DNA from: Aeromicrobium sp.
Lineage (GTDB): Bacteria; Actinomycetota; Actinomycetes; Propionibacteriales; Nocardioidaceae
Assembly (NCBI RefSeq): GCF_014378035.1
Contig: NZ_JACMOM010000187.1
Location: forward strand, 1-37,522
Direction of reading: 5' to 3'
DNA: 37,522 bases
Below the pieces are notes generated by a model, which saw only the letters and a list, made by a program, of their open reading frames with translations, had not been told where the DNA came from and made no database searches. Position numbers and translations under genes: made by a program. How positions within the stretch are numbered: position 1 is the stretch's first letter; every line of letters begins with the position of its first letter. Shown piece by piece: positions 28,260-37,522 of the stretch.

Positions 28260-29234
28260 CTACTCCTTCGAAGACGAGTCGATTTCATCGTACGCGCGGA
28301 GCGCAAGGGCAGCCTGACCGGCCACGTCCGCAGCGAGATGTGCCGGTTCGACGACGGTGACCGACCCCGCATTGCGCAGCACGAGCCGGCGCAACCACGC
28401 CCAGTCGGCACCGTAGAGCTTGGCCCGCCACACCCCGTCGCTGCCCTCCTCGAGGAGGTCGACCTGGTAGTACTCGGACAGCCAGTGTGCTCGTGGGTGC
28501 AGGTCGACGAGAGCGTAGGGCGTCTGCTCCCCCACCGTGAAGATGCCGTCCGACAGGTCGCGGGGTGTGACGTCGTGGTCCTCGGCGTCGAGCGCTGTCA
28601 GCTCGGCCCCGACGATGCGATCGAGCCGGAAGAAGCGCAGGTCCTCGGCCTTGAGGCACCACGCCTCGAGGTAGAGCTTGCCCTGCTCGGTGAAGAGTCG
28701 TCTCGGGTCGACCTGCCGGTCGGACACCTCGTCGCGTGACGCAGTGGAATAGGTGAGCTCAAGCCGTTTGCCGGCAGCCAGCGCGTGCACGATCGTCGAG
28801 TGGATCGTGGGGTCGACCTCGTCGAGGAGCACGTCGACGGGGGCCGAGACGGTGTCGCCGACGGCACTCTCGAGCTTGGCCAGCGCACTATCGATCACGG
28901 TGAGCTCCGACCCGCTCGCCGAGGCACGGAGCGTGCGCAGCGCGACGATCAGGGCGATGCCCTCGCGGGTGCTGATGCGCAGCGGGCGGGTCATGAACTC
29001 GGCGTCACGGATGTGAACGACGCCGTCCTCCTCGAGCGCGGTGAGGTCGAAGTCGATGAGCTCGCCGGGGTACTCCCCCGTGCCGGTGTACATCAGCAGG
29101 CGCAGGTCGTCACGGATCTGCTTCGGCGTCACGCCGAACTCGTGTGCGACGTCGTTGACCGGTACTCCGTCGTTGCCCTGCAGGTAGGGCACGAGGGCAA
29201 GCATCCGGATGACTTGCTGCCGCGAGCGGCTCAC
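28260..29234 (-). CDS. pafC: PafC, WYL-domain transcriptional activator
   Basis: 324 residues from GTG 29234, overlapping the pafB stop by 4 bp. An N-terminal winged HTH ('QQVIRMLALVPYLQGNDGVP', 'EFGVTPKQIRDDLRLLMYTG') is followed by the WYL domain (about 150-230: 'LTYSTASRDEVSDRQVDPR', 'LYLEAWCLKAEDLRFFRLDR') and the WCX extension with 'HPRAHWLSEYY'. PafB and PafC form a heterodimer that activates the RecA-independent DNA damage regulon in mycobacteria; despite the name (proteasome accessory factor) they are not part of the proteasome. The signal bound by the WYL domain is thought to be nucleic acid. Confidence 0.94.
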   Translation of the reverse strand: MSRSRQQVIRMLALVPYLQGNDGVPVNDVAHEFGVTPKQIRDDLRLLMYTGTGEYPGELIDFDLTALEEDGVVHIRDAEFMTRPLRISTREGIALIVALRTLRASASGSELTVIDSALAKLESAVGDTVSAPVDVLLDEVDPTIHSTIVHALAAGKRLELTYSTASRDEVSDRQVDPRRLFTEQGKLYLEAWCLKAEDLRFFRLDRIVGAELTALDAEDHDVTPRDLSDGIFTVGEQTPYALVDLHPRAHWLSEYYQVDLLEEGSDGVWRAKLYGADWAWLRRLVLRNAGSVTVVEPAHLAADVAGQAALALRAYDEIDSSSKE

Positions 29235-30202
29235 GTCGTTGCCTCGAGCGTTCCGCCAGCGGCGGCCCTCAGCCGCTGGACGACCGTGTCACGAACCTCC
29301 TGGGGCGACACCACGACGACGTCGGGGCCGTACGAGGCCACCTCCGACGCGAGCTCCCATCGCGAGGAATAGCGAATCTCGACCTCGTCGGTGCCGTCGC
29401 CGCGAGGCGTCACCCGGTCGGCTAGCCGCCGTAATGATTGGCCGCGCCCCGCCCGTATGTGCAGCACCGCCGCCTCGGCCGGCGGCGTGGGGAACAGACT
29501 GCGGGCGATGGTCTTCATGTCGATGCCCTCGGGCACGTCGTACGAACCGGGGTCGCCGGTCGTCCTGACCTCGCCGATGACCCGTGACAACCGAAAGATG
29601 CGAGCCTCTCCCCGGTCGAGGTCGTGACCGCCCACGTACCAGCGGTCGTGCCACGAGATGATTCCCCACGGCTCGAGGTGGCGCTCCATGGCACTGCCGC
29701 CGGGCCTGGCGTAGACGAACGACACGGGGATGCGTCGTGTGACGGCCTCCCACATGGCGTCGAACGATGGCTCGTCGGTCGAGAGCCGCGGCTCGGCCAT
29801 GCGCAACACGCTCGTGTCGACGTCGACACCGATGGCCTTGAGCTTGACGAGGGCGGTGGTCGAGTCGCTTGCCAGGCCGGCGTGCTCCCACACCTGGGTG
29901 GCGAGACCGATGACGGCCGCCTCCTCGCGAGTCAGCTCGAGGTCGGGCAGCTCAGCCTCGTCACGACGGATGCGGTAGCCCGGCTCGTCGCTGAAGTATT
30001 TGTCGTTCTGCCCCATCTCGACGGTGATGCCGAGCTCACGCAGCTCTTCCTTGTCGCGCTCGAACTTTCGATCGAACGCCTGGGGAGTCGAGCCACGGTA
30101 GTCGGCGATCGACTCCCGGATCTGCTCCTTCGTGAGGTACTGACGACTCACGAGAAGAGCGAAGATGAGGTTCATCAACCTCTCGGTCTTGCGCTCGGCC
30201 AT
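29231..30202 (-). CDS. pafB: PafB, WYL-domain transcriptional activator
   Basis: 323 residues. 'MAERKTERLMNLIFALLVS', then 'YLTKEQIRESIADYRGS' and 'AFDRKFERDKEELRELGI' form the HTH half; the WYL half contains 'SFVYARPGGSAMERHLEPWG' and 'HDRWYVGGHDLDRGEARIFR', with the WCX tail to residue 323. Partner of PafC, encoded with a 4-bp overlap. Upstream, 12 bp away, is the FKBP lipoprotein stop. CATCCT lies 6 nt before the ATG, a weaker match to the leaderless pattern seen at neighbouring genes. Confidence 0.94.
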   Translation of the reverse strand: MAERKTERLMNLIFALLVSRQYLTKEQIRESIADYRGSTPQAFDRKFERDKEELRELGITVEMGQNDKYFSDEPGYRIRRDEAELPDLELTREEAAVIGLATQVWEHAGLASDSTTALVKLKAIGVDVDTSVLRMAEPRLSTDEPSFDAMWEAVTRRIPVSFVYARPGGSAMERHLEPWGIISWHDRWYVGGHDLDRGEARIFRLSRVIGEVRTTGDPGSYDVPEGIDMKTIARSLFPTPPAEAAVLHIRAGRGQSLRRLADRVTPRGDGTDEVEIRYSSRWELASEVASYGPDVVVVSPQEVRDTVVQRLRAAAGGTLEATT

Positions 30203-30214
30203 GACCGAAGGATG

Positions 30215-31132
30215 TCAGGAAGCGTCGAGCAAGTCGATGGCGAAGATCAGCGAGTCGCCGGCCTTGATCTTGCCGCCGGCAGGGGGCTTGGCGCCGTAGG
30301 CCTTGTCAGCCGGGCACACGAGCACCACGCGGGTGCCGAGCTTCTGACCGACGAGCTGGTCGTCCCAGCACTTGATGAGCTGTTTGCTGCCGACCTGGAA
30401 CGTACGTGCCGAGCTCGACCACGACTCGTCGAAGATCGCGCCATCCGGGTAGACCTGGCCGACGTACTGGGCCGTGAGGGACTGTCCGGCCTTGACGGTG
30501 GCGCCCTTGCCCTGGATCACGACGTTCGCGCTCTCCTTCGTGGGCGCCTTGGCGGTCTTGGCGGTCTTGGCGAACTTCGACGGATGACCCTGGGCGTCGA
30601 GCTGCATCGAGGGCAGGTCGGACGGGAGCTTCTGGGCGGTACCGGTGACCTCGGTGGGGATCTTGGCGACGATGTCGAAGAGGAACACCATGGTGTCGTT
30701 CTTCTTGACGCCCAGGTCCTTCTGACCCTTGCCGAAGCCGTCCTTGGGCGGGATGGCGACAAGCACGCGGCTGCCGATCTTCTGCCCCGACAGCCCCTTG
30801 ATGAAGCCCGGCAAGATCGAGTTCTTCACGAGCGTCAGGGTGAGGGGCTTGTTGCTCGTGAACGAGCTGTCGAACTGCTTGCCGCTGCGTCCGTTGACGG
30901 CGACGTAGTTGACCTTGACGGCATCGCCGGACTTGATGGCGTCGCCGCTTCCCTTGTTGGGCACCTTGGTGCCGGTCTTCGTCGCCGAGAAGCCCTTCGC
31001 GACGGTGACCTTGGGGCTCGCAGACGAGCTGACCTTGATGGAGCCGAGGTCGCCACCACCGGAGGTGTCGCTACCACCGCATCCCGCCAGCAGGAGGCTT
31101 GCGGCAGCGGTGACCAGGAGAATACGACGCAC
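30215..31132 (-). CDS. Lipoprotein with two FKBP-type peptidyl-prolyl isomerase domains
   Basis: 305 residues from GTG 31132, chosen because GAAGG lies 8 nt upstream and the result is a compact signal 'MRRILLVTAAASLLLAGC' with a lipobox ending at Cys18; a GTG at 31159 is also open. Domain one (about 60-165) has 'VKVNYVAVNGRSGKQFDSSF' and 'LPGFIKGLSGQKIGSRVLVAIP'; domain two (about 205-303) has 'LTAQYVGQVYPDGAIFDESW' and 'DKAYGAKPPAGGKIKAGDSL'. Both keep FKBP Tyr, Phe-Asp and Ile/Leu positions, so both may isomerise prolines. It should be anchored outside the membrane by lipids added via Lgt and Lnt. It sits between pafA and pafB, a placement shared by many actinobacteria. Confidence 0.92.
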   Translation of the reverse strand: MRRILLVTAAASLLLAGCGGSDTSGGGDLGSIKVSSSASPKVTVAKGFSATKTGTKVPNKGSGDAIKSGDAVKVNYVAVNGRSGKQFDSSFTSNKPLTLTLVKNSILPGFIKGLSGQKIGSRVLVAIPPKDGFGKGQKDLGVKKNDTMVFLFDIVAKIPTEVTGTAQKLPSDLPSMQLDAQGHPSKFAKTAKTAKAPTKESANVVIQGKGATVKAGQSLTAQYVGQVYPDGAIFDESWSSSARTFQVGSKQLIKCWDDQLVGQKLGTRVVLVCPADKAYGAKPPAGGKIKAGDSLIFAIDLLDAS

Positions 31133-31201
31133 GAGCACGACCTTCAGAGTGGAAAGCACAAATCGTGGCCATGCTATCGACCGCAGCCAAGGGCCCCGAC
31201 G

Positions 31202-32563
31202 TCACATGCCGTCGATGAGCCGCTGCACGCGTTCGTCGTGCGACCGGAACGGATCTTTGCAGAGCACCGTGCGCTGTGCCTGGTCGTTGAGCTTGAGGTG
31301 CACCCAGTCGACGGTGAAGTCGCGGCGTCGCTCCTGGGCCCGTTTGATGAAGTCGCCTCGAAGGCGGGCGCGGGTCGTCTGCGGCGGCACAGACTTGGCC
31401 TGAAAGACGTCCAGGTCGTTGGTGACGCGGGCGACCGCGCCCTTGTTCTCGAGCAGGTAGAAGATTCCGCGATCACGGCGGATGTCGTGGTAGGCGAGAT
31501 CGAGCTGGGCGATCCGAGGGTCGCCCCAGCTGAGGCCGTGGACGGTGCGGTAGCGGTCGAGGAGCTTGTACTTGATGACCCAGTCGATCTCGCGCTCGAC
31601 GAGCGACAGGTCCTCGGACTCGACAGCCTTCAGGGTGCGCTCCCACAGGTCGAGCACCCTGGTGATGGTCGGCGTGTGGAGGCCGTGCTTGTCGACGAAC
31701 TCGGCGGCCTTGCCGAAGTACTCGGCCTGGATCTCCAGGGCCGACAGCTCGCGACCGTTGGCCAGCTGAACCTTGCGGCGACCGGTCATGTCGTGCGAGA
31801 TCTCGCGGATCGCGCGGATCGGGTTGTCGAGGGTCATGTCGCGCATCGACACGCCACCCTCGATCATCCGCAGGACGAGGTCGGTCGTGGCGACCTTGAG
31901 CAACGTCGTCGTCTCGCTCATGTTGGAGTCGCCGACGATGACGTGCAGGCGACGGAAGCGTTCGGCGTCGGCGTGGGGCTCGTCGCGGGTGTTGATGATC
32001 GGGCGCGACCTGGTGGTGGCGCTGGAGACGCCCTCCCAGATGTGCTCGGCGCGCTGGCTCACCGAGAAGATCGTGCCGCGGGGGGTCTGCTGGACCTTGC
32101 CAGCACCACAGATGATCTGGCGGCTGACGAGGAACGGGATGAGGACGTCGGCTAGCTTGCTGAACTCCCCTTGGCGGCTCACGAGGTAGTTCTCGTGACA
32201 CCCGTAGGAGTTGCCCGCGGAATCAGTGTTGTTCTTGAACAAATAGATGTCGCCCTCGACACCGTCGTCCGCGAGCCGCTTCTGCGCATCGATCATCAGG
32301 CCCTCGAGGATGCGCTCGCCGGCCCTGTCGTGGGTCACCAGGTCAACGAGGTCGTCGCACTCGGGAGTGGCGTACTCGGGGTGACTGCCGACGTCGAGAT
32401 AGAGGCGGGCACCGTTGCGCAGGAACACGTTGCTGCTGCGCCCCCACGAGACCACCCGGCGGAAGAGGTAGCGAGCCACCTCGTCGGGCGACAGCCGCCG
32501 CTGACCCTTGAACGAGCACGTGACGCCATATTCGTTCTCGATGCCGAAGATGCGCCTGTCCAT
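31202..32563 (-). CDS. pafA: Pup--protein ligase PafA
   Basis: 453 residues, exact family length. '[20 protein letters not shown]' with Glu9, and '[19 protein letters not shown]' with catalytic Asp57, are diagnostic of the PafA/Dop glutamine-synthetase-like fold. '[18 protein letters not shown]' and '[20 protein letters not shown]' follow without the Dop-specific loop, which supports PafA rather than Dop. It uses ATP to join the C-terminal Glu of Pup to substrate lysines, marking them for the PrcAB proteasome encoded at the right end. pup and dop must lie beyond the window. A TAGGCT box 6 nt before the ATG indicates its own leaderless promoter, needed because the inserted cassette separates it from prcA. 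Confidence 0.96.
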
Positions 32564-32569
32564 TCGTCA

Positions 32570-32575
32570 AGCCTA
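32570..32575 (-). promoter_or_regulatory. Candidate -10 box for leaderless pafA mRNA
   Basis: TAGGCT on the minus strand ends 6 nt before the ATG at 32563, with no ribosome binding site. Confidence 0.45.
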
Positions 32576-32936
32576 GTCGCGGGCCGTCCATCGCGCGGCG
32601 TGGCGCGCGAAAACGACGTCTGATGAACAAAGACTCCGGGGCACACGACGACAGCGCGAGGCTGGACGAGCGTGCGAAGCGGACCGGCGAGTTTTCGACG
32701 ACCAGCCCGGTGGGTTCTTCGATGTCTGCGGAATCGTCGGAACGCGAATAATCGCCTCAGCGTTTCAAAAATTGAGGACTTTAGTCCCGGACTTATAGCC
32801 CGTTGGGATGGTTTCTGACGGTTGGTCACACCCTGTCACGTAGAACACATATCATTGTCCGTGGGAGTAGTCCTGCGCGACTTGCGCGGATGACATGTCA
32901 CTATCGGGCGCGTGCGCCCGTTCACCAGGGAGCAAC
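32576..32936. other. 360-bp intergenic promoter region between pafA and the surface cassette
   Basis: No gene is supported here. The middle part (about 32,735-32,860) is clearly more AT-rich than the rest of the window. It contains a DosR-like palindrome with an adjoining half-match, and a TATCAT hexamer at 32850-32855 that could be the -10 of the rightward cassette. A GGGAG ribosome binding site precedes the ATG at 32937. Confidence 0.6.
32772..32801. promoter_or_regulatory. DosR/DevR-like box with an adjoining imperfect copy
   Basis: The 20-mer TTGAGGACTTTAGTCCCGGA (32772-32791) matches the DosR consensus (GGGACT-WW-AGTCCC with TTS/SAA flanks) at 18 of 20 positions. A second, weaker match with four mismatches in the 14-bp core (32788-32801) overlaps its end. 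TTGAGG (32772-32777) and TATAGC (32794-32799) also form a possible promoter with the box in its spacer. The regulator gene is not in the window, so function is inferred from the motif. Confidence 0.6.
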
Positions 32937-33542
32937 ATGAACAATCCATCTCGGCGTGCCCGAAAGATCGGCACCGTCGTCGTCACCCCGATCGCGATTC
33001 TCGCCGCCGCCGCCCTCGTGTGGCAGTCGTCGTACGCGGCGTTCAGTGGCACGACGCGCAACTCCGGCAACAGCTGGTCGACCGGCTCGGTGGCCCTGAC
33101 AGATGACGACTCCGGCTCGGCGCGGTTCCAGGCAGCCGAGATGGTTCCGGGTGCCACAGAGACAAAGTGCATCGCGGTCACGGCGAACGCCACGGTTCCC
33201 GGCGTCGTCAAGGGGTATGCCGTGAACCCCGTCGTCTCAGCCGCCAAGCTGGCGGACTACGTGAAGGTCTCGGTCAGGTACGGCACCGGTGGCGGCTTCG
33301 GCTCGTGCACCAACTTCGTTTCGGCGGGTGTGTCGATCCCGGAGACGTCACTCACGACGCTCGCACTCTCTAAGGACTACGCCACCGGCGCGGGTGCATG
33401 GTCGGTCATTGCGGGCACCCAGACGCGCACGTACGAGATCACCTGGAAGTTCGACACCACGGGGTTGACACAGTCCCAGCTCGATGCGCTGCAGGGTGCG
33501 CAGACCGGCATCGACTTCCAGTGGGAGCTGCAGAGCAGCTGA
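32937..33542 (+). CDS. TasA/camelysin-like protein with SipW-dependent-type signal
   Basis: 201 residues from ATG 32937 with AGGGAG 5 nt upstream. The N-terminus has a basic start, a hydrophobic helix (13-29) and a predicted cleavage Ser-Tyr-Ala34|Ala35-Phe-Ser. The mature start, 'AAFSGTTRNSGNSWSTGSVA', followed by an acidic 'LTDDDSGSARF', is the pattern of SipW-dependent TasA/camelysin proteins. The rest is beta-rich, with cysteines in 'ETKCIAV' and 'GSCTNF' that may pair, and ends in 'GIDFQWELQSS' as expected for the fold. Relatives form extracellular fibres or are surface proteases; which applies is unknown. The next gene encodes the matching signal peptidase, so the pair should be enzyme and substrate. 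Confidence 0.8.
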   Translation: MNNPSRRARKIGTVVVTPIAILAAAALVWQSSYAAFSGTTRNSGNSWSTGSVALTDDDSGSARFQAAEMVPGATETKCIAVTANATVPGVVKGYAVNPVVSAAKLADYVKVSVRYGTGGGFGSCTNFVSAGVSIPETSLTTLALSKDYATGAGAWSVIAGTQTRTYEITWKFDTTGLTQSQLDALQGAQTGIDFQWELQSS

Positions 33543-33613
33543 TCTGAGCAGTATCGGGTCTGATCATCGTCAGATCTTCAGCATGTTGTCGACGACGCCT
33601 GGAGGGAGCGCCC

Positions 33614-35767
33614 GTGTCGGACACGGCAGAGGCGCCAGACGAAGCCACCCATGCGAGCATCAGCGCCGGGCTCGGGCCCGGCCCGGTGCTCGCCTGGGGT
33701 GGGCTTCTCCTGATCTTGCTGGCGCGCAGCTATCGAGCGTTCATCGTGACGCTGTTGGTCGTGGCAACCATCCCGATGTTGTGGAGCATGCCGAGCCACA
33801 TCATCCGCAGCGAGTCGATGGAGCCGGGCCTGTCGCGCGGCGATGTGGTCATCGGCAAGCCACTGCCAGAGTCCGACCCGGTCCCCGTAGGCCGGGTCAT
33901 GATCTTCACGAACCCCGACACCGCGTCCAAGCACGAGGTGCTCGTCCATCGCGTCGTCGAGAACCTCGGCCACGGTCAGTACACGACCGCCGGTGATGCC
34001 AACCGGAGCAATGACAGCACCTCGGTTCCGGCCCGCAACTTCACGGAACGCGCCGTCATCTGTGTGCCCTTCGTGGGCCTGCCGGTCGTGTGGCTGGCCG
34101 AGCACGACCGGGGCCGGCTGCTGGTCTGGCTGGTCTTGACGGTCCTGGCGCTCTACTTCTCCTCGCGTCCGCCGTGCGACCCGCGGCACCGGCGCCGCAA
34201 GGAGCTCAGCAAGGCGCGCCGCGCCGCTGAGCGCGCGGGCACACTGGTGCGTCGGGCGGCCCTGCCGATCGCCGGCGCGGTGGCACTTGTCGTGGCCGCA
34301 ATCGTCGGCGCGCCCCTGGCACAGGCCGACGCTGCCTTCACGTCCATCACGGTCAACCCCGCCAGCACGTGGCAGGTGTCGACCACGATCGCGCAGAGCA
34401 TTGTCCTGTCCGATCCCGGTGACATCGTCCGCGGCTCGGTCCCGCTGACGGTGACTCTCGGCAATGTCGGCAACCTGTCGTACTCCGTGCGCATCGAGTA
34501 CTCCGTCGCCGGGTCGGGCAACTGGAAGACACTGTGCACCAAGGCATCGGCGCCCTACGCGTGCAGCTGGGCGACCACGGGGTTCGCGAACGGCGACTAC
34601 GACCTCCGGGCCATCTCGACGTCCGGGTCCACGACCTTCACCTCGAGCACCGTCGCCGACGTCATGGTCGACAACGGCGCGCCGACGGTGACCATGCAGG
34701 ATCCGGGCACGCCGCTTCGGGGCACTGTCACGCTCGCGGCAGCCGTAAGCGACACCCAGTCGGGCGTGTCTCGAGTCGTCATCCAGCGCGCAATCACGGG
34801 CAGCTCTGTGTGGACGGACGTCTGCACGATCATCGATGCACCGTACTCGTGCCGGTTCGACACCACGTCGATCGCGGGCGGCACCTACTCGTTCCGAGCG
34901 GTCGGCACCGACGTTGCGGGTAACTCCGCCACGTCGACAGCAGTGACGAATCGCGTCGTCGACAACTCTGTCTCAGCGGTGTCGATGGAAGACCCTGGCG
35001 CCAATCTCGCCGGCACCGTGACGCTGCTCGCCTCGGCGAGCTCGACAGCGGGCATCACCTCCGTGCGGATCCAGCGAGCGCCCGCGGGGACGACGACCTG
35101 GACCGATGTGTGCACCGATACGTCGTCGCCGTACTCATGCGTCTGGAACACGACCCTCGGCCCCGACGGGTCTTACGACCTGCGGGCCGTCCTGCTGGAC
35201 AATGCCGGCAAGACCACGACCTCGGCGACCGTCTCCGGACGTCGCGTCGAGAACAGCCCGCTGCGGGCCTACGACGTTCAGACGACCAACGGCGGCTACA
35301 CGGCGGGCAAGCTCGAGCCCGGCGACTCGATGACGTTCACCTACAGCGAGCAGATCACGCTGGCCAGCGTCATGTCCGGGTGGAGCGGCGCCGCGACACC
35401 CGTGACGCTACGCCTTCGCGATGGCGGCGTGCTGGGCCTGAGCAGCACAAGTGACACCGTCGACCTCCTCCGCAACGGTTCGGCAATCAACCTCGGCTCG
35501 GTCAACCTGCGCCAGGACTACATCAAGAGCAGCCGCACGTCACAGTTCGCTGCCACCATGACCGCCTCGACGGTCACCGTCAACGGCGTCACAGCCACGA
35601 AGGTGACGGTGGCGATCGGAGGCCAGACAAGCGGCCAGGCCGTGCGCACGGCTTCTCTCACCTCGACAATGGTGTGGACACCCTCCGCCCTCGTCACCAA
35701 CCTGTTTGGTCGCGCGTCGGCGACGACACCGACCTCTGAGCTGGGAAACCTCGACCGCGAGTTCTGA
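33614..35767 (+). CDS. SipW-like signal peptidase I fused to Ig-like repeat surface protein
   Basis: 717 residues from GTG 33614, with GGAGGGAG 5 nt upstream. Two helices (about 26-37, 42-58) precede an ER/SipW-type signal peptidase domain: 'IIRSESMEPGLSRGDVVIGK' with Ser68, 'VLVHRVVE' with His112 and 'TTAGDANRSNDS' with Asp128 and Asp134. A helix at 168-183, a very basic cytoplasmic loop (185-214) and a fourth helix (215-236) follow. The fourth ends Ala-Asp-Ala240|Ala241-Phe-Thr, like a SipW-dependent cleavage site. Outside lie three Ig-like repeats of exactly 96 residues, with Cys pairs 308/317, 404/413 and 500/509, and a C-terminal domain (about 550-717) ending 'ELGNLDREF'. No LPXTG anchor is seen. 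The single-chain fusion of enzyme and probable substrate is unusual; self-cleavage is inferred. Confidence 0.85.
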   Translation: MSDTAEAPDEATHASISAGLGPGPVLAWGGLLLILLARSYRAFIVTLLVVATIPMLWSMPSHIIRSESMEPGLSRGDVVIGKPLPESDPVPVGRVMIFTNPDTASKHEVLVHRVVENLGHGQYTTAGDANRSNDSTSVPARNFTERAVICVPFVGLPVVWLAEHDRGRLLVWLVLTVLALYFSSRPPCDPRHRRRKELSKARRAAERAGTLVRRAALPIAGAVALVVAAIVGAPLAQADAAFTSITVNPASTWQVSTTIAQSIVLSDPGDIVRGSVPLTVTLGNVGNLSYSVRIEYSVAGSGNWKTLCTKASAPYACSWATTGFANGDYDLRAISTSGSTTFTSSTVADVMVDNGAPTVTMQDPGTPLRGTVTLAAAVSDTQSGVSRVVIQRAITGSSVWTDVCTIIDAPYSCRFDTTSIAGGTYSFRAVGTDVAGNSATSTAVTNRVVDNSVSAVSMEDPGANLAGTVTLLASASSTAGITSVRIQRAPAGTTTWTDVCTDTSSPYSCVWNTTLGPDGSYDLRAVLLDNAGKTTTSATVSGRRVENSPLRAYDVQTTNGGYTAGKLEPGDSMTFTYSEQITLASVMSGWSGAATPVTLRLRDGGVLGLSSTSDTVDLLRNGSAINLGSVNLRQDYIKSSRTSQFAATMTASTVTVNGVTATKVTVAIGGQTSGQAVRTASLTSTMVWTPSALVTNLFGRASATTPTSELGNLDREF

Positions 35768-35814
35768 TTCTGCCGGGCGCCGGTCCCAGCTCAGGGACAG
35801 GGAGCGGAGACGCC

Positions 35815-36714
35815 GTGGCGGCTGCGGCCATCTGCTCGACAACGACCTGCGCACGACCTGACACTGGATGGATGTTCCGCCCACCAGCCGTTCTCGCCTC
35901 TGCTGTGTTGCTGGTGGGCCTCGCATCCTGCGGTGATGGAACGATGGAGCGCACCCCGTTGCCCGAGGGGATTGTCATGCACGTCGACCAGGCGCGCGTC
36001 GAGCGCAAGGGTCGGCAGGTCTTCATCCGCGTGAAGAACACCATGGCGGAGTCGGTCACCGTCGTGGGGTTCACGATGAGGTCCTCTCGGGTCAGCACCG
36101 TCAGGTGGACCGGTGATGACGTGATCGGTGCAGGCTACGAGACTGATCTGGAGTTCGACATGCCCCTCGGGCGCTGCGGCAACGGCTTCACCGCGGCGGT
36201 CAGCCTGACGTACCGCATCGGGGAGGGCGACGTGCGGCAGTCGATCGGGACGGCGGACGACCCGTACGGCAACATCGACTCGTTGCTCGGTCGCGACTGT
36301 GCGAAGACCACCCTCGCCTCGGCGGCGGTCGTCACCACCGGGATGCCGGTGGTGCAAGGCGTCGGGCTCCGCTCAACCCTTCGGCTCCCGGTCACCCTGA
36401 CGTCAACCGGGAAGCTGCAGGGCGTTCGTTTCGGTGGGTACGAGTCGACCGTGTTGTTCAGGCAGGCACCCGGCTCCCCCGCCGACGTCGACGTGTTTCT
36501 CGGGCGCGCAGACCACCCCATCAACGTCGACATGGTTGTCGTCCCGTCGCGGTGCGATCCGCACGCGCTCGCCGAGGACAAGGTCGGCACGCTGTTCGGG
36601 GTCAAGGTGCTGGCCGACAACGTCGCCGACGGTGCCTCGTTCTATCTCCCGCTCACCCGGCCGCAACGGTCGGCGTACTTCGCGTTCTTCAGCTCGCACT
36701 GCGGGCTTGACTGA
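35815..36714 (+). CDS. Lipoprotein-like hypothetical protein of the surface cassette
   Basis: 299 residues from GTG 35815, with GGAG 5 nt upstream; ATG 35872 would give a textbook lipoprotein signal, 'MFRPPAVLASAVLLVGLASC', but has no good ribosome binding site. The lipobox Leu-Ala-Ser-Cys predicts lipid anchoring to the outer membrane face. The mature part is beta-rich, in two similar-sized halves, with cysteines in 'GRCGNGF', 'GRDCAKT', 'SRCDPH' and the last residues 'SSHCGLD' that may form two disulfides. No known family was recognised. It follows the signal peptidase fusion by 47 bp and is probably cotranscribed. A helper or anchor for the secreted proteins is a guess from context. Confidence 0.75.
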   Translation: MAAAAICSTTTCARPDTGWMFRPPAVLASAVLLVGLASCGDGTMERTPLPEGIVMHVDQARVERKGRQVFIRVKNTMAESVTVVGFTMRSSRVSTVRWTGDDVIGAGYETDLEFDMPLGRCGNGFTAAVSLTYRIGEGDVRQSIGTADDPYGNIDSLLGRDCAKTTLASAAVVTTGMPVVQGVGLRSTLRLPVTLTSTGKLQGVRFGGYESTVLFRQAPGSPADVDVFLGRADHPINVDMVVVPSRCDPHALAEDKVGTLFGVKVLADNVADGASFYLPLTRPQRSAYFAFFSSHCGLD

Positions 36715-36722
36715 CCGGTCAG
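36711..36722. repeat. 12-bp palindrome holding both convergent stop codons
   Basis: CTGACCGGTCAG is a perfect palindrome. It contains the TGA of the cassette lipoprotein (36712-36714) and, on the other strand, the TGA of prcA (36719-36721), leaving 4 bp between the coding regions. Confidence 0.7.
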
Positions 36723-37417
36723 CTGGCGGTGAGGGATGCGGCGATGTCCTCGTCGGTCAGTCGACGAAACTTACGCGGCTGAGGACGAGTACGGGTGAGG
36801 ACCGCCACTTCGAGTGCGGACGACTCGACCTCGCGGGGTGGGTCGACGTCCTGGCCCAGAGCCGTCACGGCAACCCTGATGGCGGCGTTGACGTCGAGGC
36901 CCGGCGTGTAGTGCTCGCCAAGGTAGGCCTCGACCTGCTCGCTCTGGCCACCCATGACACCGAAGCCCTGGATGTCGGCGACCGAGCCGTCGTACATCAG
37001 CCGGTAGACCTGGTCCTGCGAGGCGTCGTCACCGAGCTCGCCGACGAAGATCTCGACCTCGTAGGGCTTCTCGGCCCCGGAGGAGAAGATCGTGCCGAGC
37101 GTCTGCGCGTAGGCGTTGGCAAGCCCGCGGGCCGTGACGTCGCGACGGTCGTAGGAATAGCCGCGGAGGTCGGCGAGGCGGACGCCGGCAATGCGCAGGT
37201 TCTCGAACTCGTTGTAGCGGCCCACCGCGGCAAAGCCGATGCGGTCGTAGATCTCGCTGATCTTGTGCAGGGCACGGGACGGATTCTCCGCCACGAACAC
37301 GATTCCGTCGGCGTACTGCACGACAGCGACGCTGCGTCCGCGGGAGATGCCCTTGCGGGCGAAGTCCGCACGGTCCTTCATGAGCTGCTCGGGCGAGACG
37401 TAGAACTGTTGAGTCAT
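36719..37417 (-). CDS. prcA: 20S proteasome alpha subunit PrcA
   Basis: 232 residues from ATG 37417, with AGAGGAA upstream; the frame is open further into the prcB end but that part is not PrcA. The N-terminus '[20 protein letters not shown]' and '[18 protein letters not shown]' is the alpha-subunit gate and first helix, followed by '[20 protein letters not shown]' and '[18 protein letters not shown]'. Alpha rings cap the PrcB rings and bind the Mpa/ARC ATPase. The lack of a C-terminal catalytic Thr is normal for alpha. It follows prcB by 28 bp in the same operon. The C-terminal tail has a basic segment ([10 protein letters not shown]). Confidence 0.96.
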
Positions 37418-37445
37418 CGAGCCATTCCTCTCGGGAGTCCTGACA

Positions 37446-37522
37446 TCAGCTGGGGGGGGCGGACGGGCCGCCGGGGCGGACGAGTCGGCCGCCGATGACG
37501 TCGTCGGCGATGGCACCGACCT
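37446..37522 (-). CDS. prcB: 20S proteasome beta subunit PrcB, C-terminal 24 codons only
   Basis: The visible end translates to '[18 protein letters not shown]' then 'PSAPPS' and a TGA at 37446-37448. The gene runs off the right edge of the window. Assignment rests on its place directly upstream of prcA on the same strand, the invariant order in actinobacteria, since the catalytic Thr and core lie outside. Confidence 0.75.

Follow-up and report, generated by a model that had tools for sequence, protein, structure and literature searches.

A signal peptidase joined in one chain to its own probable substrate in a SipW/TasA-type export system of Actinomycetota

In a 37,522-nucleotide stretch of an Aeromicrobium sp. 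genome (hereafter the window, meaning the whole stretch of DNA that was analysed), one open reading frame encodes an S26B signal peptidase followed by an exported Ig-like module, with a predicted signal-peptidase site between the two. We consider it likely, from sequence comparison, that the product has two parts and processes itself, as a component of a two-gene export system of the SipW/TasA type. The fusion, the conservation of its catalytic residues, the site, the operon, and a split counterpart are each supported by comparison with relatives. By anatomy and conservation, a conserved protease and its site lie in one chain, as in a polyprotein. The parts are of known kinds; their joined, apparently self-processing form appears to be a new version of the SipW/TasA system. 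We found no description of a signal peptidase joined to its substrate in the open-access literature (titles and abstract starts, with subscription journals mostly outside the search).

Results

An S26B peptidase and an Ig-like module in one open reading frame

The features of the two-gene system are as follows, with the arrow marking the predicted cut.

32937..33542, + strand: exported TasA-like protein of 201 aa, signal of the SipW type (SSYA↓AFSGTTRNSGNSW), presumed first substrate (conserved start, upstream of the fusion)
33614..35767, + strand: S26B signal peptidase plus exported Ig-like module, 717 aa, one open reading frame
33743..34138, + strand: S26B peptidase domain, residues 44-175 (TIGR02228 and SEC11A matches)
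33815..33817, + strand: Ser68, predicted catalytic serine
33947..33949, + strand: His112, predicted catalytic histidine of the ER type
33995..34015, + strand: Asp128 and Asp134, acidic active-site residues
34166..34255, + strand: basic loop, presumably cytoplasmic, residues 185-214, 12 Lys/Arg and 3 Asp/Glu (residue count)
34247..34333, + strand: last membrane helix, read as signal-peptide core and c-region, residues 212-240 (hydropathy)
34325..34372, + strand: predicted cleavage site A238-D-A240↓A241-F242 and conserved early mature stretch to W253 (junction comparisons)
34334..35764, + strand: exported module, residues 241-717, with Big_7 and Big_13 Ig-like repeats and a conserved C-terminal portion that ends in DREF (Pfam, alignment)

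The fusion gene has a GTG start, and by eye a ribosome site, GGAGGGAG, precedes it at 33601-33608. By its motifs and by the curated S26B model TIGR02228, which it passes at 60 bits (cut-off 51.85), the N-terminal domain is an S26B, ER-type Ser-His signal peptidase. Its best match among solved structures is human SEC11A, at E 1.6e-4 with the single sequence and 1.1e-11 for the peptidase domain with a family profile. Ser68, His112, Asp128, and Asp134, which the first-pass annotation had already placed correctly, align with the SMEP, HRV, GDxN, and D motifs of SEC11A, and all four are invariant in 36 of 36 aligned sequences. At residues 125-128 (window 33986-33997), window-type fusions read T-A-G-D-A-N where SEC11A has T-K-G-D-N-N, and many other S26B proteins of the window's genus have K-G-D or Q-G-D. 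The Ala of TAGDAN is nearly invariant within the aligned group.

Hydrophobic segments lie at residues 20-40, 42-61, 145-163, 166-185, and 212-240. Because residues 145-155 align within the SEC11A enzyme domain, we read segment 145-163 as probably part of the enzyme, making no membrane pass. The basic loop and the further helix (hydropathy 2.69 over residues 217-231) are as first described, and the junction that follows reads A238-D-A240↓A241-F-T. The predicted cut falls between 34333 and 34334 and would divide the 74.7-kDa chain into parts of 25.7 and 49.1 kDa. With Ser68 outside the cell and segment 145-163 not crossing the membrane, the positive-inside rule should place residue 240 on the outer face as well. 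That the two sites share this face was an earlier proposal; the positive-inside rule agrees with it, provided that segment 145-163 is noncrossing. The later part of the fusion matches Big_7 (E 7.7e-19) and also Big_13, so that the 477 residues beyond the cut do carry the Ig-like repeats first noticed there. In the aligned fused Ig proteins, the C-terminal part of the module (residues 545-717; window 35246-35764) is conserved and ends in DREF, DRQF, or DRDF. Elsewhere in the genome, near a contig end (G000:C292:25-609), there is a second, partial relative of the module, with 35% identity to residues 509-716.

The fusion gene follows a TasA-like gene

The TasA-like protein encoded upstream has the junction S-Y-A↓A-F-S, of the same type as that in the fusion, as the first-pass annotation had pointed out. 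We place its start at the conserved position 32937, in preference to the earliest ATG in the frame (32895). Across 41 loci (the window and L104-L143), a TasA-like gene stands directly upstream of the fusion in 39. These neighbours have ≈200 codons and a signature like WQ[S/G]SxA↓AF..TRN.GN.W.TG. The family includes at least 729 proteins; among 120 relatives listed, those with a name are mostly called 'hypothetical protein' and a few 'Camelysin metallo-endopeptidase'. Its sequence link to TasA appears weak. Peptidase_M73 (camelysin/TasA) gives weak matches in 6 of 18 relatives (best E 0.0016) and none in the window's own TasA-like protein, and a PDB profile search with the family returned no TasA chain among sequence matches up to E 10.

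Among 396 evenly sampled Actinomycetota genomes, 19 have the TasA-like family at E 1e-10, one of them being the window's genome. Nineteen stretches from the other 18 genomes place an S26B gene beside the TasA-like gene in 17 cases, fused in eight and stand-alone only in nine (tails judged partly by eye). Comparison supports the view that the fusion and the TasA-like gene form a widespread operon with interchangeable exported modules. The first-pass annotation missed the operon, the exchange of modules, and the place of the TasA-like neighbour in it.

The peptidase is conserved and the modules vary

S26B-Ig fusions, for which a search was suggested with the first reading of the sequence, recur in relatives. 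With residues 1-262 as the query, 8000 scored candidates of similar total length yielded 69 matches, namely the window's own protein and 68 others of 445-829 aa. Their precomputed Pfam labels are Big_7 (29), LamG (PF13385; 28), Ice_binding (PF11999; 4), Big_3_2 (1), fn3 (1), and none beyond the peptidase (6), with family names checked on seven of the 69. The exported modules therefore vary (Ig, LamG, ice-binding-like, fn3), and the catalytic residues are kept. A scan of one genome per species, which used the single peptide pattern TAGDAN and is biased to the window type, gave 41 fusion-type loci. Their hosts are Nocardioides, Aeromicrobium, Janibacter, Arthrobacter, Pseudarthrobacter, Paeniglutamicibacter, Kocuria, Cellulosimicrobium, Labedella, Zafaria, Cellulomonas, and others, and in 39 of these loci the open frame extends at least 241 residues beyond the GDAN motif. 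One actinobacterial relative (L177:3359-5293) is a fusion whose module, by eye, looks like RCC1-type repeats.

The junction resembles a SipW-type cleavage site

From 109 fused sequences, two were dropped (L104, cut by a contig end, and P0046, in which the pattern was not found), and 75 below 70% identity were kept; an Oscillospiraceae locus (L144) was excluded from the set. Each junction was anchored on two aromatics, one following the last helix and the other 10 or 11 positions beyond it, and the remaining columns were scored. All but one (P0031) of the 75 could be anchored in this way. P1 is Ala in 67 of the 74, P3 is Ala in 53 and small (AGSTV) in 73, and P2 is Ala in 7. Small residues occupy both P1 and P3, in keeping with the -3/-1 rule, in 70 of 74 junctions vs 33 of 127 similarly spaced aromatic pairs taken as controls from the exported parts of the same proteins; the anchoring misplaces a few junctions (P1 is Lys or Leu in three). 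By module label, the rule holds in 14/14 Ig, 19/19 LamG, 2/4 ice-binding, 30/32 unlabelled loci, and 5/5 others. Leu replaces the aromatic in two fusions (P0031 and L136). The window junction has the small P3 and P1 and the aromatic P2' of a SipW-type site.

A position model built only from the signals of TasA-like neighbours, with each fusion's own neighbour left out, found the best 20-mer of the whole protein within a 90-residue junction interval in 74 of 75 fusions, counting P0061, whose match lies in this wider interval and not at the exact site. With shuffled tails, the figure is 13 of 75. In a narrower run on all 109 sequences, the best match fell off the junction for L104, L105, and P0061. 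The score tops all 50 whole-protein shuffles in 56 of 75 fusions. The window protein is among the other 19: its junction is its best 20-mer, and 7 of 50 shuffles score as high, so the support for this junction taken alone is weaker. The curated SipW-signal model TIGR04088 was considered as proof of the window junction and failed, giving no match to the junction fragment and, in a search of the whole genome, none in the window to either the junction or the TasA-like neighbour. The loop between the last two helices has a positive net charge in 58 of 75 fusions. By a hydropathy cut-off, the released part is free of additional hydrophobic helices in 71 of 73, a count that includes four sequences (L126, L135, L140, and L136) in which the pattern placed the site too far up- or downstream. 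Across the family, these comparisons support the reading that the junction behaves as a SipW-type signal-peptidase site.

Split counterparts and a second type of fusion

Elsewhere in the window's genus, this Ig protein has a gene to itself (43-58% identity over the matched parts). A stand-alone S26B gene lies upstream on the same strand, 7-960 nt from the split Ig gene, in 14 of 17 loci, and for the remaining three (L070, L072, and L080) an S26B is likewise upstream by the listed gene places. Of 16 readable N-termini of the split Ig proteins, 15 show S-[SA]-A-[TS]-[FY] after a hydrophobic core; one has Leu for the aromatic. Because these proteins carry their own signal, the fused gene would correspond to a peptidase joined to an entire secreted substrate with its signal.

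A second cluster of this kind lies on a different contig of the window's genome.

G000:C284, locus L064:2365-5822: second SipW-type cluster of the window's genome

One of its products is exported and passes both TIGR04089 and TIGR04088; others are a stand-alone S26B, a camelysin-like protein that passes TIGR04088 as well as PF12389, and a 338-aa S26B fusion, whose start codon overlaps the stop codon of the camelysin-like gene. A further exported-looking protein is also part of the cluster. By eye, the junction of the 338-aa fusion, QA↓YYTDSATATSGTF, resembles its own neighbour's LA↓YYTDNATLTGGTF, and the window junction likewise resembles the signal of the window's TasA-like neighbour. Among the second-type fusions that a script found in stretches from the genus, the site is present in 25 of 25 (24 by pattern and one by eye). 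On eight of these 25 junction fragments, TIGR04088 passes its cut-off in one, scores below it in four, and misses three.

In a tree of the quick kind, with long branches meeting and five low-scoring S26B-like genes that fail the motif omitted, window-type fusions form a single clade, and second-type fusions, nearly all of them, group in another part. We considered two independent origins of the fusion and make no such claim, since the AU test does not reject a tree that unites both types in a single clade (p 0.676, with four long-branch rows omitted from the test).

Which enzyme would cut the junction

The earlier proposal that the enzyme cuts its own or a sister chain gains from the SipW-type site and from five genomes in which no other S26B was found; it is less secure in the window's genome, which holds two further S26B enzymes. 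Because of these two, cutting of the window junction by the fused enzyme is likely, not forced. A search covering the host genomes of 34 of the 41 loci found the fusion to be the only S26B in five, all Nocardioides, with N. furvisabuli and N. ganghwensis among them. At E up to 10, each of the five has, besides the fusion, one short partial match of 11-19 bits. Each also has one strong member of the TasA-like family, to which one genome adds a weak short match.

We ranked candidate signals with a held-out model that contained no sequence from the five Nocardioides genomes and not the window junction. In every one of the five, the top rank goes to the TasA-like neighbour (E 9e-18 to 8e-16) and the next to the junction of the fusion itself (E 5e-6 to 4e-4), with everything else above E 0.1; up to an E of 1, TIGR04088 finds no signals in these genomes. 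For the window's genome, the TasA-like neighbour is again first and the window junction third (E 0.00125, whole genome). Second there (E 6.8e-5) is the start of a 140-aa open frame on contig 64 (G000:C64:3108-3179), which resembles a TasA-like signal and matches the first 22 positions of the model only.

The chief alternative, which we regard as rather unlikely, is that another signal peptidase, either a stand-alone S26B or a LepB-type enzyme, cuts the junction, and that the fusion only ensures that enzyme and module are made together. The two additional S26B genes of the window's genome suit this account, as do the multiple TIGR02228 matches, often partial, in 29 of the 34 host genomes. It sits poorly with the five Nocardioides genomes and with the likeness, in both fusions of the window's genome, of the junction to the signal of the operon partner. 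The LepB variant is further disfavoured by the residue at P2': according to PMC10269814, Phe at this position hinders E. coli LepB and occurs in the SipW substrate TasA, constituting the TasA/SipW pattern. With no other S26B found, the signal ranking, and Phe at P2' acting against LepB, the fused enzyme is the only evident candidate for cutting its own junction in the five Nocardioides. Taken together, the comparisons make cleavage by the own or a sister chain what we infer to be the best explanation.

Alternatively, the chain might stay uncut, with the last helix as a permanent anchor and the Ig module displayed beside a peptidase that processes only the TasA-like neighbour. A helix followed by an exported module is indeed also the anatomy of an anchored protein, but this account leaves unexplained both the Ala residues at P1 and P3 with a variable P2 across unrelated modules and the same kind of signal in the split relatives, and we judge it improbable. 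Although the window's assembly is fragmented (400 contigs), we reject a merging of two genes through sequencing or assembly error as extremely improbable, given the 68 further proteins that match the peptidase part and the continuation beyond GDAN in 39 of 41 loci in other genomes.

Discussion

A probable self-processing export module

In the self-processing reading, the topology, the cut, its assignment to this enzyme, and the role in assembly that we infer would fit together as follows. The S26B enzyme would be membrane-bound with its active site outside the cell, and its last helix would lead through the basic cytoplasmic loop to a second crossing by what is, in effect, the signal peptide of the exported protein. 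The enzyme would cleave its own chain, or that of a sister molecule, after A240 and would also cut the TasA-like neighbour after A34. The 477-residue module would then be released outside the cell with a free N-terminus of the TasA donor-strand type and could join or cap the TasA-like assembly. In the fusions, the two aromatics used as anchors stand at P2' and 10 or 11 positions beyond it, and the TasA-like neighbours show the same pattern. We take residue 28 of TasA to lie directly after the SipW cut, which fits Phe29 as P2'. In PMC9674648, TasA residues 28-38 are described as a donor strand linking subunits, with contacts made by F29, I32, and F39, and TapA as a possible supplier of the first donor strand. 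The aromatic spacing and the operon suggest that cutting may free a module able to join or cap a TasA-like assembly.

More tentatively, and with somewhat less than even confidence, we suggest that Actinomycetota have made of SipW/TasA secretion a two-gene self-maturing kit in which one gene supplies the filament subunit and the other a peptidase joined to an interchangeable end module. Enzyme and module would be produced 1:1, and self-cutting at the start of a TasA-like donor strand would free the module at the place of emergence of the TasA-like subunits, to cap, nucleate, or decorate the filament.

Relation to known systems

LexA/signal-peptidase superfamily self-cleavers likewise unite a peptidase with the site that it cuts in a single chain. 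LexA-type proteins inactivate themselves by self-cleavage, whereas the cut in the window fusion would set an exported partner free. Protease and product also share one chain in viral polyproteins that have a protease built in; unlike them, the window fusion is cellular and membrane-embedded, and its cut would be a signal-peptide cut. The split S26B and Ig loci of the same genus encode the same Ig protein with an S26B adjoining, but as two genes, and their S26B comes from another branch of the family tree than the window fusion. The Bacillus tapA-sipW-tasA operon, as described in PMC9674648 and PMC10269814, resembles the system described here in its ER-type Ser-His peptidase, in a substrate with Phe at P2', and in the TasA-like partner in the operon. 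Bacillus SipW is a separate protein, however, whereas the window peptidase is joined to one substrate. The Bacillus SipW model NF046067 (cut-off 190) is passed by neither the window fusion (39.8 bits) nor the second fusion (62.8 bits).

If the self-processing reading is true, the fusion offers a direct test case for how signal peptidases choose their cut, in cis or in a sister chain, and bears on why TasA-type proteins need a dedicated peptidase. It would also provide a natural scaffold for the release of swappable surface modules and would give a role to many actinobacterial entries named 'signal peptidase I' or 'hypothetical protein'.

Genomic surroundings

The gene downstream of the fusion (35815-36714, same strand) may or may not belong to the operon; it has, by eye, a lipoprotein-like start (LASC) and matches no Pfam family above cut-off. 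Within window 28260-37516, the two-gene system sits amid Pup-proteasome genes, with pafC/WYL regulators, an FKBP, and the Pup ligase on one flank and a proteasome subunit on the other.
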